From: a virus
Strand: one strand, 5' to 3'
Length of the DNA stretch: 22,650 bases
IMG/VR virus record: IMGVR_UViG_3300029951_000119
Coordinates: 1-22,650 of that record
Position 1 is the stretch's first letter. Every line of letters starts with the position of its first letter. Of this stretch, positions 2-6,402 are shown piece by piece. A program made the position numbers and the translations under genes. The notes beneath the pieces were generated by a model that did no database searches, was not told the origin of the DNA, and was given only the letters and a program-made list of their open reading frames with translations.

Positions 2-331
2 AACGAGCTTTGCGCTGGCGATATCCACGGGGTCAAGCCGCGCCCGGCGCTCAGTACCGACGTGTACGACCTCTACAAGGTCTGGTGCGCGCGTACTGGG
101 CAGCGGCCTGGGCCCATGCCTCGACTGATCAATGCCCTGGAGCGCAAGCACAACGTGCGTGCTGGGCGGAAACGATACACCGCCGCCGATGGTGCCAAGG
201 GTCCTCACGGCGTATTGCTGTTCCGCGGTGTCGAACTGCCGCCGGGTGAATCGGAGACCAATTGGCTCGGCGATCAGATCAGCGCCTTCAAGCGTTCGGT
301 CAGCGTCTACAAGGGTGAGTCCTTTGACTGA
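2..331 (+). CDS. Phage replication primase/helicase-type protein, C-terminal end (partial)
   Basis: The reading frame is open from the left edge of the window and ends at a TGA at 329-331, so only about 109 C-terminal residues are present and the true start lies outside. The segment contains DVYDLYKVWCARTGQRP followed by RLINALERKHNV and a basic RKRY. This pattern of a small winged-helix-like tail with a Tyr/Trp-rich helix is what I associate with the C-terminus of D5/P4-type phage primase-helicases. The catalytic domains are not visible here, so the family call rests on the tail alone. It lies immediately upstream of the repeat-rich non-coding region and the packaging genes, the usual end of a replication block. 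A different replication protein with the same C-terminal domain is the main alternative. Confidence 0.55.
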   Translation, partial: NELCAGDIHGVKPRPALSTDVYDLYKVWCARTGQRPGPMPRLINALERKHNVRAGRKRYTAADGAKGPHGVLLFRGVELPPGESETNWLGDQISAFKRSVSVYKGESFD

Positions 332-685
332 TCGCCGCGCCCGCCGCGACTGCACGGTCGCCTTGACGATCAGGGATGAACTGCCTGCCTCTGTGCGGTA
401 TGTGCGCCATGGTGTGCGGCATCGCGTGCGGCATCTATCCCTTGTGGCACTAGGCTGTGCGGCATGTACGGCATCCCCTCTACGTGCGGGCGTGCGCACA
501 TCTGCGCGCGCACCCGCGCACCTGCATGCGTGCGCTGTGTATCCGCACATGCCGCACAGCCGCGCTGCTGCGCCATTTGATACCGCACGACGTACCGCAC
601 CGCATACCGCACACACCTACGCGTGCGCTCGTCCTCTCTTTTTTTCGCTTGCCTTGAAAGGGGAAGTGGTAGTGGAGCCATCCCT
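332..685. other. Non-coding region between replication and packaging genes
   Basis: About 350 bases with no convincing gene. Short open frames exist on both strands but their products are runs of Arg, His, Pro and Cys produced by the repeats. The region holds the octamer dyad array (394-611), a pyrimidine-rich stretch with seven consecutive T at 639-645, and then the ribosome binding site of the terminase small-subunit gene (GGAG at 674-677). In lambda-like phages the cos site lies directly upstream of the small terminase gene, so this is the natural place for a packaging site. I do not recognise a cosN sequence. Confidence 0.6.
394..611. repeat. Dyad array of TGCGGYAT octamers (iteron-like)
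   Basis: The left arm carries TGCGGTAT (394), TGCGCCAT (403), TGCGGCAT (415, 427 and 458) and TACGGCAT (467). The right arm carries the reverse-complement forms ATGCCGCA (549), ATACCGCA (580), GTACCGCA (592) and ATACCGCA (604). Spacing is mirrored exactly: 403/415/427 are 12 bp apart, as are 580/592/604, and 427 to 458 is 31 bp, as is 549 to 580. All four pairs share one symmetry centre at position 507. The sequence between octamers is much less conserved, so the selected unit appears to be the octamer and its phasing, not a simple duplicated hairpin. Candidate roles are an iteron origin used by the upstream replication protein, or a cosB-like array bound by the small terminase subunit. Which one is inference. 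Confidence 0.75.
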
Positions 686-1297
686 TTGAACCTGCCTGAA
701 ACCGCCAGCTTCGCTGGCTTCGCCAACATCCTCGGCATCAAGCCCTCGGCGGTCACGGCGCTGCGCCACGCTGGCCGCCTGGTACTCACGGACGACAGCA
801 AGCGCGTGCAGGTTGCCGCTAGCCAGCAGCGCCTGCGCGATACAGCCGACCCGAGTAAGTCCGGTGTTGTCGCTCACCACGCCGCGGAGCGCGCGTCCAA
901 GGGGGCGGGGCAGGGCAACGCCGCCGATGCACCCGCCGGTGCCGCGCACGAGGCGGCACGTGCGGTCACTGAGCCGGCTCCTGCGCAGGATCGCGCTGGC
1001 AGCACCTACCAAGCCTCCCGCGCAGTGCGCGAGCGCTACCTCGCGATGGAGGCCAAGCGTGCCTACGAGGTCGCCATCGGCAAGCTGATGGATGCCAACG
1101 AAGTTGCCGTGGCCGTGGCCCATGCCGCCGCCACGCTGCGCACTCGCCTGGAAAGCCTACCCGATGTACTCGGCCCGCAACTGGCCGCCATCACCGACGA
1201 GGCACAAGCGCGCGCCACCTTGGCAGAAGCAATCCAGCACGCCTTGGAGGAAACCTCGCGCCAGTTCGCCAATATCGCCGAGCGGGGAGCTATATGA
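686..1297 (+). CDS. Terminase small subunit, Nu1-like
   Basis: Predicted DNA-recognition subunit of the packaging motor, which binds the packaging site and directs the large subunit to cut there. I start it at a TTG at 686 because GGAG sits 8 bases upstream (674-677). An earlier GTG at 623 would add 21 residues from the pyrimidine-rich leader and has no such site. The 203-residue product opens with a short helix-turn-helix-like segment (FANILGIKPSAVTALRHAGR), followed by a low-complexity Ala/Gly-rich linker. The C-terminal part has alternating helices around RTRLESLPDVLGPQLA and ALEETSRQFANI, typical of Nu1-type small terminases of proteobacterial prophages. The gene ends with ATATGA; the large-subunit gene would be expected here but is displaced by reverse-strand cargo. 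Confidence 0.75.
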   Translation: MNLPETASFAGFANILGIKPSAVTALRHAGRLVLTDDSKRVQVAASQQRLRDTADPSKSGVVAHHAAERASKGAGQGNAADAPAGAAHEAARAVTEPAPAQDRAGSTYQASRAVRERYLAMEAKRAYEVAIGKLMDANEVAVAVAHAAATLRTRLESLPDVLGPQLAAITDEAQARATLAEAIQHALEETSRQFANIAERGAI

Positions 1298-1993: not shown

Positions 1994-2024
1994 ATTCTAT
2001 GACGCATGGTTGGATGAAAAACAA
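1994..2024 (-). promoter_or_regulatory. Possible promoter of the DUF4145-type cargo gene
   Basis: On the reverse strand a TAGAAT hexamer (1999-1994) resembles a sigma-70 -10 element. A TTGTTT (2024-2019) lies upstream with a long 19-base spacer. Transcription would begin roughly 30 bases before the ATG at 1956. A cargo gene opposing the phage operon would need its own promoter, but the -35 match and spacing are poor. Confidence 0.3.
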
Positions 2025-2051
2025 GGGCAGCGATCTGAGCGATGTGCTCAT

Positions 2052-3983
2052 ATGACTGCTGCTAGTGTTCCTCGAATCGCTTCCGCTATCGCCCGCGCAT
2101 TGGCACCGCGCAAGCCGCTTACCGTCTCGCAATGGGCGGACGCGGAGCGCTTCCTGTCCAGCAAGGGCAGCGCGGAGCCGGGCCGGTGGCGTACGCACCG
2201 CAACCCGCCGCTGCGCGAACCGATGGACTGCATGAGCGCGCGCAGCTCGGTGCAGGAGGCGGTGCTCAAGTTCCCGATTCAGGACGGCAAGACCGAGACC
2301 GCGATCAACGTGCTGGGCTACACCATGGACCACAACCCGGGTCCGATCATGGTCTGCCTGCCCGGCGAGGTGAGCATGAACAAGTGGGTGGCGCAGAAGC
2401 TCAACCCGATGCTCGAGGAAACGCCGGCGGCGCAGCGCGCGCTCACCAGCGTGGCCAGCCGAGACAGTAGCAACACGCGCACCTTCAAAGACTTCGCCGG
2501 CGGTCAGCTCTACCTCGAACACGCCGGCAGCCCGAGCCGTCTGAAGTCCACCAGCGTGCGCACGCTGATCGTCGACGAGTTCGATGACTTCGCGGCGAAC
2601 CTCACCAGCGGCGACGATCCGGCGGCCATGCTCGACGGCCGCACCTCTGCGTTCCCTGCGACGTACAAGCGCCTCTACATCGGCACGCCCGGCATCAAGG
2701 GCATCAGTCGTATCGATGCGAAATGGGAAATCAGCGACCAGCGCTTTTACCACGTGGCCTGTCCTGACTGCGGGCATGAGCAGCCGTTCGAGTGGAGCGG
2801 TCTGCATTGGGCGCCGGATGGCCGCCAGTGCTGGTATGTCTGTCGCGAGTGCGGCGTGTGCATCGACGAGCACCACAAGACCGCCATGATCGCCGCCGGC
2901 CGCTGGGTGCCCACGTACCCCGAGCGCAAGGTGCGGGGCTACACACTGAATTGCCTGTACTACTCCATCGGCCTTGGTCCTCGGTGGCTGGACCTGGCCA
3001 ACATGTGGCGCGATGCGCAGAACGATCCGGCCAAGCTCAAGACCTTCGTCAACGACCGCCTGGCCGAAGCCTGGGAGGATCCGGCGATGCGTGCGGTCAA
3101 GCACAACGCCATCGCCGATCGCGCAGAAACCTATCGACTGCGTAGCGCGCAGCTCGGCGTGCTCGCCATCACCGCCGGCGTCGATACGCAGGACAACCGC
3201 CTGGCGGTTCACATCATCGGTTGGGGCCGGGGCTTGGCCAGCTGGACGCTCGACTACATCGAGCTGCCCGGCGATCCGGCCGAGGACAAGGTGTGGGATG
3301 ACCTCACCGATCTGCTTAACCGTCCGATGGAGCATGCCGGCGGCGGTGTGCTGCGTGTGGAAGCCACTGCAATCGATGGCGGTGGTCACCGTACGGAGGC
3401 AGTCAAGCATTTCGCCCGATCGCGTCGCATCCGCCGGCCGATGGTCATCTTTGGTGCTGTCAACAACAATGCGCCGGTGCTCAGCAAAGGCAAGCTTCAC
3501 GACGTCAACTGGCGCGGCCAATACGATAAGCGCGGCGTCACCATCTATCACGTTGGCACCGTGGCAGTGAAACACTTGCTCTACAGCCGCCTAAGCACGG
3601 ATGCGGAAAAGCCGGCCGATGCGCGCCTGGTGCACCTCAGCGAGGATCTGCCGTCGGAATACTTCGCTGGCCTGGTATCGGAAACCTACAACCCGAGCAA
3701 AAACCGATTCGAGAAGCGCGGTGGCCCTCGCAACGAACCGCTCGACACGTGGGTGTATGCGTACGCCGCTGCCCATCATCCTGAATTGCGCTTGCACCGT
3801 CTGACAAAGTTGGACTGGGATACGCGCGAGGCTCGTCTTGCTCAAAAAGAGGGGCCTGATAAGGGCCTGAATAGTGCAACCGACCAAACGCGGCTTGAAC
3901 CTCGCGAAAGTTCGGTGTCCGGACTTCCTGTGCGCGGTAGCAATAACCCTTTCGCATCTTCTGATTGGTTGAGCCGCCGGTGA
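2052..3983 (+). CDS. Terminase large subunit, lambda gpA family
   Basis: Packaging ATPase and endonuclease that cuts concatemeric DNA and drives it through the portal. The 643-residue length matches lambda gpA closely. Visible features in order: the family's atypical P-loop PIQDGKTE at about 75-82 (leading Gly replaced); Walker B LIVDE at 172-176; the coupling segment YIGTPG near 209-214; a zinc-ribbon insert (C237, C240, C264, C267); and the nuclease segment starting ITAGVDTQDN near 373-382, with the first acidic metal ligand at D378. The later conserved block LDTWVYAYAAAHH is near the C-terminus. I start at ATG 2052 because the open extension upstream lies inside the cargo promoter region. 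The stop overlaps the next start as GTGA, so translation is probably coupled. No truncation is apparent. Confidence 0.93.
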   Translation: MTAASVPRIASAIARALAPRKPLTVSQWADAERFLSSKGSAEPGRWRTHRNPPLREPMDCMSARSSVQEAVLKFPIQDGKTETAINVLGYTMDHNPGPIMVCLPGEVSMNKWVAQKLNPMLEETPAAQRALTSVASRDSSNTRTFKDFAGGQLYLEHAGSPSRLKSTSVRTLIVDEFDDFAANLTSGDDPAAMLDGRTSAFPATYKRLYIGTPGIKGISRIDAKWEISDQRFYHVACPDCGHEQPFEWSGLHWAPDGRQCWYVCRECGVCIDEHHKTAMIAAGRWVPTYPERKVRGYTLNCLYYSIGLGPRWLDLANMWRDAQNDPAKLKTFVNDRLAEAWEDPAMRAVKHNAIADRAETYRLRSAQLGVLAITAGVDTQDNRLAVHIIGWGRGLASWTLDYIELPGDPAEDKVWDDLTDLLNRPMEHAGGGVLRVEATAIDGGGHRTEAVKHFARSRRIRRPMVIFGAVNNNAPVLSKGKLHDVNWRGQYDKRGVTIYHVGTVAVKHLLYSRLSTDAEKPADARLVHLSEDLPSEYFAGLVSETYNPSKNRFEKRGGPRNEPLDTWVYAYAAAHHPELRLHRLTKLDWDTREARLAQKEGPDKGLNSATDQTRLEPRESSVSGLPVRGSNNPFASSDWLSRR

Positions 3984-5118: not shown

Positions 5119-6051
5119 CTAAAACGGAATGTCATCGTCGTCAAATGGTTCGGGTGTCTGGTTGGTCTCGACGGGATTGAGTTTGTGCTTCGACAGAAGG
5201 TCGTTTAGTTGCTTAAGCGGATCTCCCGACGAAAGAGCCACCGAGGACGTGGCGCTATCTCGTAGTTTTTCTAAGTATGCGATTGGCATGCTTTCGACGG
5301 AAGCGATGTACTTTAGCTTTTCTAGCGCTTCGTCTGCGGAAGCTGCTCGGATTGTTGTGTCAATGAGACAGGACAACATGCGTGAGCGGGTCTTTGGCGA
5401 CGAAACCAGGACTCGAAAGATGCTCTCGGCAACGCTCGTTACCGTCTTACCCTCAGCCTGAAGGCCTTGGTACTTGGAAATGAACCCATATGGGTTCAGT
5501 CCTCGGATGATAGGAATGACCAGCACACCGCGACCAACGGCAACTCCAACTTCTTGATCTGTCCAATTGCTCTCTTTGAATCCGGGCATGAGGATTGCAG
5601 CCAAGGCATCCATGGAGTAGAGCCCTGCCTCGATCTCGTCCAACCACTCTTTGGTAGGCTCAATGTCAACGTGTGCAACGAACGCTGAGACTCCGTAGTT
5701 GCGTAACGCCGCCTGCAGCAGGCCGGTCGTCTTTTTGAAGCTAGACAGGTGGCTGAGGAACAGCTTGAAATGGAAAGGCTCCCAAAACGTGGCCTCTAGT
5801 GTCGTACTTGAATCCGCGACGGTGTAGTTATGGGAGAGCTCAAGTTCATCGGCTATCCGCACAACGAGCGGATCTTTTTCATCAGAGAGTAGTTCCTTGG
5901 TGTAGACCCACTTACTGTTCACCCCCGAGGTTGGCTTCTTAGTGTCAACGCCGTGGGCTCGTAAGTAGGTGTCAATTTCGCCGTACGACATTCGGCTTTG
6001 CAGCTCTCTGCCGATGCGATCGATGAGCTCGAGTTTGTCCAGAACCTTCAT
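5119..6051 (-). CDS. TIR-domain protein with an SSB-like C-terminal tail (putative defence effector)
   Basis: With a start at ATG 6051 the product is 310 residues; the frame is open to 6207, but that extension runs into the start of the next phage gene. Residues 1-75 form a helical N-terminal region (LIDRIGRELQSRMSYGEIDT, then SKWVYTKELL) like N-terminal domains I associate with abortive-infection proteins. A TIR domain spans about 94-200: KLFLSHLSSF, FVAHVDIEPTKEW, MDALAAILMPGF, and SNWTDQEVG, with E167 in the position of the catalytic Glu of NAD-cleaving TIRs. A helical linker follows. The last residues (303-310) are FDDDDIPF; the final six are identical to the C-terminus of E. coli SSB, which binds replication and repair proteins. 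The gene opposes the phage operon and is more AT-rich, typical of prophage-borne defence cargo. NADase activity and SSB-partner binding are inferences. Confidence 0.85.
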   Translation of the reverse strand: MKVLDKLELIDRIGRELQSRMSYGEIDTYLRAHGVDTKKPTSGVNSKWVYTKELLSDEKDPLVVRIADELELSHNYTVADSSTTLEATFWEPFHFKLFLSHLSSFKKTTGLLQAALRNYGVSAFVAHVDIEPTKEWLDEIEAGLYSMDALAAILMPGFKESNWTDQEVGVAVGRGVLVIPIIRGLNPYGFISKYQGLQAEGKTVTSVAESIFRVLVSSPKTRSRMLSCLIDTTIRAASADEALEKLKYIASVESMPIAYLEKLRDSATSSVALSSGDPLKQLNDLLSKHKLNPVETNQTPEPFDDDDIPF

Positions 6052-6088
6052 GCTTTTGGCCGTCTGACTAATTAATGTGCGAATCAAA

Positions 6089-6119
6089 GTGTGCCAGCTT
6101 TCCGGTAACCATGGCACAC
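6089..6119. promoter_or_regulatory. Inverted repeat in the TIR gene upstream region (possible operator)
   Basis: GTGTGCCA (6089-6096) and TGGCACAC (6112-6119) are perfect reverse complements separated by 15 bases. The element lies upstream of the TIR gene on one side and directly before the gpW-like start on the other. A short AT-rich stretch (TAATTAAT, 6069-6076), which could hold the TIR gene's -10 region, lies between it and the TIR start. The size fits a dimeric repressor site or an RNA hairpin. No binding protein can be named. Confidence 0.4.
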
Positions 6120-6120
6120 G

Positions 6121-6402
6121 ATGTCCGCGATGCTTGCGAGCATGTCCACCGCTTCCGACATGCTTGCCAGTTACCTCGCCGCCGAGTCGGCGATTCTTCG
6201 CGGTCAAAAATTCCGCTGGGGCGACCGGGAGCTAACCCGCGCCGATCTGGCCATGGTGCAAGCGGGACGCCGTGAATGGGAGCGCAAGGCTGCCGCTGAG
6301 TCACGCGGTGGTGGACGGGCCGGCGTCTCGCTGGCCAACCTTTCCGGCATGCCCATGGCGCCCGCGGGCGGCGAGGGCGATGATCCGTTGCGCGGCCGAT
6401 GA
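6121..6402 (+). CDS. gpW-like head-tail joining protein
   Basis: Small helical protein (93 residues from the first ATG) placed between terminase and portal, the position of lambda gene W. The core SYLAAESAILRGQKFRWGDR, then ELTRADLAMVQAGRREWERK, matches the gpW pattern of an N-terminal helix, a short beta-hairpin around a charged Gly turn, and a second helix. In lambda, gpW is added after packaging and is needed before the next joining protein and the tail can attach. A Gly/Ser/Pro-rich tail follows. The start is uncertain: ATG codons at 6121, 6130 and 6142 are in frame, and the first two fall in a partly repeated stretch next to the cargo, with no strong ribosome binding site. The stop overlaps the portal start as ATGA. 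Confidence 0.65.
   Translation: MSAMLASMSTASDMLASYLAAESAILRGQKFRWGDRELTRADLAMVQAGRREWERKAAAESRGGGRAGVSLANLSGMPMAPAGGEGDDPLRGR

Follow-up and report, generated by a model that had tools for sequence, protein, structure and literature searches.

A two-armed iteron array behind a Toprim–SF3 primase-helicase gene is the probable replication origin of a group of temperate phages

The closest known systems to the array described here are the crr/ori system of P4 and the origins of PICIs. The annotation of P4, a satellite, places the type-1 octamers of crr, which occur in both orientations at spacings of 9, 43, and 18 bp, directly 3′ of alpha, an initiator that combines Toprim and SF3 (DUF5906) domains and ends in a winged helix known from a solved chain (1ka8); in P4, moreover, a 120-bp unit is duplicated and another ori lies at a distance. 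In PICIs, where a pri-rep-ori order is exemplified by the SaPIs and the initiator is a primase/helicase, a functional ori verified on plasmids lies immediately 3′ of rep, consists of two groups of iterons with an AT-rich region between them and may be followed by terS, and its authors knew of no other bacterial replicon with such an arrangement (PMC6092414). A stem-loop origin 3′ of a gene for a protein with primase, SF3 helicase, and winged-helix parts has been described for pRN1 and phage BIP-1 (PMC4234260). Repeated short sites can also serve packaging, as do the R-sites of lambda cosB, which are bound by gpNu1 and situated upstream of the small terminase gene.

The array considered here is located near the left end of a 22.65-kb virus record (the window, by which the whole stretch of DNA analysed is meant), directly behind the stop codon of a primase-helicase gene. 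The initial annotation had described ten copies or near-copies of TGCGGYAT at 394–611, arranged with mirrored spacing around position 507, and both observations hold. Seven copies are exact (plus strand at 394, 415, 427, and 458; minus strand at 549, 580, and 604) and three carry one mismatch (plus strand at 403 and 467; minus strand at 592), while the pairs 458/549, 427/580, 415/592, and 403/604 share exactly one centre, with steps of 12, 12, and 31 bp in both arms. All seven exact copies found in the window fall inside the array, where 0.1 would be expected from dinucleotide shuffles of the region; an additional one-mismatch octamer on the plus strand at 569 is out of register. Comparison with relatives refines the repeat unit to the 9-mer GTGCGGYAT, copies of which also follow one another head to tail with a period of 9 bp at 394/403 and 458/467 (Table 1). 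To the right of the array, positions 613–660 hold a CG-rich stretch and then a pyrimidine tract, a candidate cos or leader element; such a tract occurs in 14 of 45 loci with the small terminase gene nearby and in 7 of 36 with that gene distant.

Table 1. Features of the array and of the adjoining genes in the window.
Feature	Position	Strand	Basis or remark
Primase-helicase 3′ end: C-terminal winged-helix domain, 109 aa; inferred array reader	2..331	+	Similarity, AF2
Arg56 codon, first wing strand; covaries with motif base 4	167..169	+	Residue-base counts, tree
Left arm iteron 1, TGCGGTAT	393..401	+	Motif match
Left arm iteron 2, TGCGCCAT, 1 mismatch	402..410	+	Position kept in relatives
Left arm iteron 3	414..422	+	Motif match
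Left arm iteron 4	426..434	+	Motif match
Left arm iteron 5	457..465	+	Motif match
Left arm iteron 6, TACGGCAT, 1 mismatch	466..474	+	Relative L044 has intact TGCGGCAT
Central spacer	476..539		Alternating purine-pyrimidine, GC 0.73
Degenerate innermost right-arm iteron, TGCGGATA	540..547	-	Sequence reading; 9-bp tandem register in relatives
Right arm iteron	549..557	-	Motif match
Right arm iteron	580..588	-	Motif match
Right arm iteron, TGCGGTAC, 1 mismatch	592..600	-	Motif match
Right arm iteron	604..612	-	Motif match
Small terminase subunit TerS, phrog_57; not array reader	686..1297	+	phrog_57, E 1.7e-23
Large terminase subunit (TerL), GpA type	2010..3983	+	PF05876, PF20454

Judged by similarity, the open reading frame at 2–331 is the last 109 residues of a Toprim plus SF3 primase-helicase of about 800 residues, its product sharing 58% identity with the C-terminal end of the 800-residue primase of locus L002 and 46% with that of gp1 of Stenotrophomonas phage S1. 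The window covers only the C-terminus; the L002 and S1 primases match DUF5906 (E = 9e-22 and 3e-23, respectively) and Toprim_3. Proteins of this type are related to P4 alpha (BLASTP, E = 1e-10), and their helicase is related to a solved structure recorded as ‘Primase’, which we take to be the NrS-1 primase. The AlphaFold (AF2) model of the C-terminal domain is a winged helix of the order H-H-E-E-H (pLDDT 90.8), in which residue 40 begins the second main helix and residues 56 and 70 lie in the first and second strands. A Foldseek search of the PDB with this model returned weak matches, none at E ≤ 0.001, hhalign profile comparison of the domain with the P4 alpha C-terminus was not significant, and a plasmid search found no relative over the full length.

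Searches with TerL and the primase yielded over 200 loci, which were dereplicated to 116 for array statistics, each array being given a score S that was compared with 20 dinucleotide-preserving shuffles of its locus. Behind the primase stop codon the array exceeded all 20 shuffles in 114 of the 116 loci and reached the threshold of S ≥ 60 in 110, a score attained by 0 of 110 and 0 of 96 control regions, which were taken inside the primase gene and 3 kb downstream. The initial annotation had proposed comparing the spacing among related phages, and had regarded relatives lacking any conserved octamer or spacing as telling against a functional array; no such outcome was found, as more than 100 loci keep the spacing while the octamer itself varies by lineage (GTGCGGYAT, GTGCGGGAY, GTGCAGGGT, GTGAAGGGT, TGTTCCAGC, GCGAACGCA, TGCAACGCC, and ACTACGCCA). 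The conserved plan has about six sites per arm, with left-arm sites at 0, 9, 21, 33, 64–65, and 73–74, a centre of median 78 bp, and right-arm sites at 0, 9, 18, and then about 61, 73, and 82 (0, 9, 18, 49, 61, and 73 in the clade of the window). Locus L065 is a perfect 6+6 mirror, and compared with the closely related L044 exactly one 9-bp unit has been lost from the right arm of the window. Pseudomonas phages L234–L237 and L239 adhere to the dyad plan only in part, their outer right-arm sites being on the plus rather than the minus strand.

The centre between the arms is not AT-rich in the manner of PICIs, either in the window (GC 0.73) or over 93 loci, where its median GC of 0.63 equals that of the gene. 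Purines and pyrimidines instead alternate there, with an alternation of 0.78 at 476–539 in the window and, over the 93 loci, of 0.68 in the centre versus 0.51 in the gene, the centre being higher in 91. Such alternation is Z-DNA-prone, and is seen in those 91 loci regardless of GC content. Between relatives the central sequence displays no conservation; of a cosB array, a conserved cosN nick site near the repeats would be expected.

The locus shares with P4 and the PICIs a primase plus SF3 initiator, an array immediately 3′ of its gene and two iteron sets flanking a centre; since the centre is not AT-rich, the array is classed as a variant of the P4/PICI origins. Unlike P4, it has a different octamer and a single two-armed dyad of about 6+6 sites, and belongs to a whole phage; a C-terminal winged helix is predicted here as it is known in P4, but the two domains are not alignable with significance. 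It is distinguished from the PICI origins by a centre of alternating purines and pyrimidines with average or high GC and by its presence in complete temperate phages, and from the long, iteron-free stem-loop of pRN1 and BIP-1 by iterons that form no continuous stem. As far as the sequences can tell, what is new is that whole temperate phages would possess an origin of the P4/PICI style, together with a fixed dyad geometry of roughly 6+6 sites, an alternating purine-pyrimidine centre in place of an AT-rich one, and a candidate recognition code.

Which protein reads the array was approached through covariation across 97 loci, by partial rank correlations with Mantel p-values from which shared ancestry is not fully removed. 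The motif follows the C-terminus of the primase given the N-terminus of TerS (0.472, p = 0.001) but not the TerS N-terminus given the primase C-terminus (0.006, p = 0.45), and a smaller set of loci agrees. At the level of single residues, Arg56 is present in 76 of the 77 loci in which motif base 4 is C, and absent from all 8 with A, G, or T, where position 56 is S, P, Q, V, I, or L. Base 5 is associated with residue 70 (C with R in 6/6, A with T in 17/24, and G with G, A, or S in 51/54), and an A at base 8 is accompanied by P40 in 42 of 43. On the helicase-core tree, base 4 has changed about 5 times, residue 56 about 6 times and their joint label 6 times, with about 5 of the changes at base 4 and residue 56 coincident. 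The fold and the residue-base covariation are what speak for the C-terminal winged helix on the iterons, and more than 100 related phages probably show which amino acids read which letters.

Two readings had competed in the initial annotation, an iteron origin for the replication protein encoded upstream and a cosB-like array recognized by the small terminase encoded downstream; the former is strongly supported, and the latter contradicted, by the location of the array, by its decoupling from TerS, and by covariation at the level of both the whole motif and single residues and bases. A cos/cosB array bound by TerS and cut in a central palindrome-like region is accordingly given very little credence, even though the gene for TerS, a Nu1-like winged-helix protein, has its start in the window about 75 bp beyond the array (similarity begins near 686, the mechanical reading frame at 623) and the GpA-type large terminase would suit a lambda-like cos phage. 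In 40 loci TerS is more than 800 bp distant, often behind the minor-tail gene phrog_1924, and none of these loci has an array beside TerS; phages with an unrelated TerS still carry one behind the helicase gene, no covariation with the TerS DNA-binding domain is left once the primase is taken into account, and the centre, where cutting would occur, is not conserved. Loci L018 and L025 have TerS recognition regions that are 73% identical and completely different motifs. Relatives that share only the helicase half, with unrelated or far terminases, also carry, behind the helicase gene, an array built on a different motif: GTGTTGGGT in Pseudomonas phages pAN, PG1, Presto, and SC_9, TCAGACA in Halomonas H4907, TGGTKCA in Moraxella Mcat7, and likewise an array in KT1. 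In the annotated members of this set the terminases follow at 2–3 kb, those of PG1 and H4907 being of the Terminase_4/P27 type; TerL of Presto is 12 kb away. Counting against the origin reading, the GpA-terminase lineage always has a TerS gene somewhere downstream. Gene loss could not serve as a test, since L055, L063, L064, and L068, seemingly without TerS, prove on translation to carry it, nor could L033–L035, TerL relatives without this primase, serve as a reciprocal control, since they yielded no TerS homologue.

An origin that additionally serves packaging or late-gene regulation, with TerS or the bound primase-helicase governing the terminase operon, is unlikely. In its favour, many loci have nothing but the array between the primase-helicase and TerS genes, so that transcription into TerS must cross it, and in plasmids an iteron-binding initiator can regulate neighbouring genes. 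Against this, the array plan is unchanged although the distance to TerS ranges between about 300 and more than 2000 bp, and the motif does not covary with TerS. It is improbable, too, that the array is an auxiliary region, to which the primase-helicase binds for operator, incompatibility, or copy-control functions while replication starts at another place. P4 requires both ori1 and crr, each with type-1 repeats, such that a second site could exist, and the early part of this genome lies outside the window; yet the complete genome of S1 has a single motif cluster, behind the primase, and in pRN1 and PICIs the 3′ element is itself the origin (PMC4234260; PMC6092414). The GC skew of S1 is monotonic and uninformative, showing no switch at the array. 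Low-complexity or chance repetition, which might be suspected in a GC-rich region with many CG, CA, and TG steps, has a negligible probability and is refuted by the shuffle and control scores.

Downstream of the array are the genes for TerS, a DUF4145 protein on the minus strand, the GpA-type TerL, portal, and capsid proteins. The DUF4145 gene (1306–2007; phrog_1305), placed between TerS and TerL, is a possible moron or defence gene with a weak PADLOC match to PD-T7-4 (E = 5e-7), and a second minus-strand gene in the late operon (5119–6207) encodes a TIR-domain protein (TIR_2, E = 4e-10) that is possibly an anti-phage moron, with weak PADLOC matches only. Among relatives, L003, L021, L024, L030, and L063 have the phrog_1924 minor tail/neck-type gene between origin and TerS, which is unusual for a late operon. 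The TerL proteins of L063 (5669–7915), L071, and L073 (4400–6586) are extended at the N-terminus by a segment similar to the C-terminal part of TerS, which in L073 matches phrog_57 weakly (E = 0.005); a separate TerS-like wHTH reading frame lies upstream, and domain duplication or fusion between TerS and TerL is possible.

With a probability of roughly 0.9, the array is the phage replication origin, its octamers bound by the C-terminal winged helix of the primase-helicase and its two arms loading the helicase. We infer the binding, the origin function, bidirectional loading of a double hexamer, and central melting along the following lines. The primase-helicase encoded just upstream would attach to the octamers through its winged-helix domain, the two opposed arms of about six sites each would load the SF3 helicase at either side of the centre of about 78 bp, and the centre would be unwound for replication to start. 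The double-hexamer step is drawn from SF3 biology together with the count of six sites in each arm; if true, six sites would suit one hexamer per arm. The central spacer is a possible melting or assembly site; that it is GC-rich in the window, unlike the AT-rich centre of PICIs, is a point against this reading. A broader proposal can be advanced only tentatively, as somewhat less likely than not: that a self-loading primase-helicase origin of fixed, two-armed 6+6 geometry is widespread in complete temperate phages of Proteobacteria, that a simple correspondence of residues to bases, seated in the wing and the recognition helix (R56 for C4, residue 70 for base 5, and P40 for A8), let the origin sequence diversify freely, and that the alternating purine-pyrimidine centre replaces an AT-rich melting element.

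The finding would place in whole temperate phages a P4/PICI-style origin that the 2018 paper held to be unique to PICIs (PMC6092414). It offers more than 100 natural initiator-iteron pairs of constant geometry and varying motif, which make it directly testable by what code an SF3 primase-helicase recognises its sites and in what geometry it is loaded onto DNA, and it may allow the origins of many uncharacterised prophages to be pointed to from sequence.
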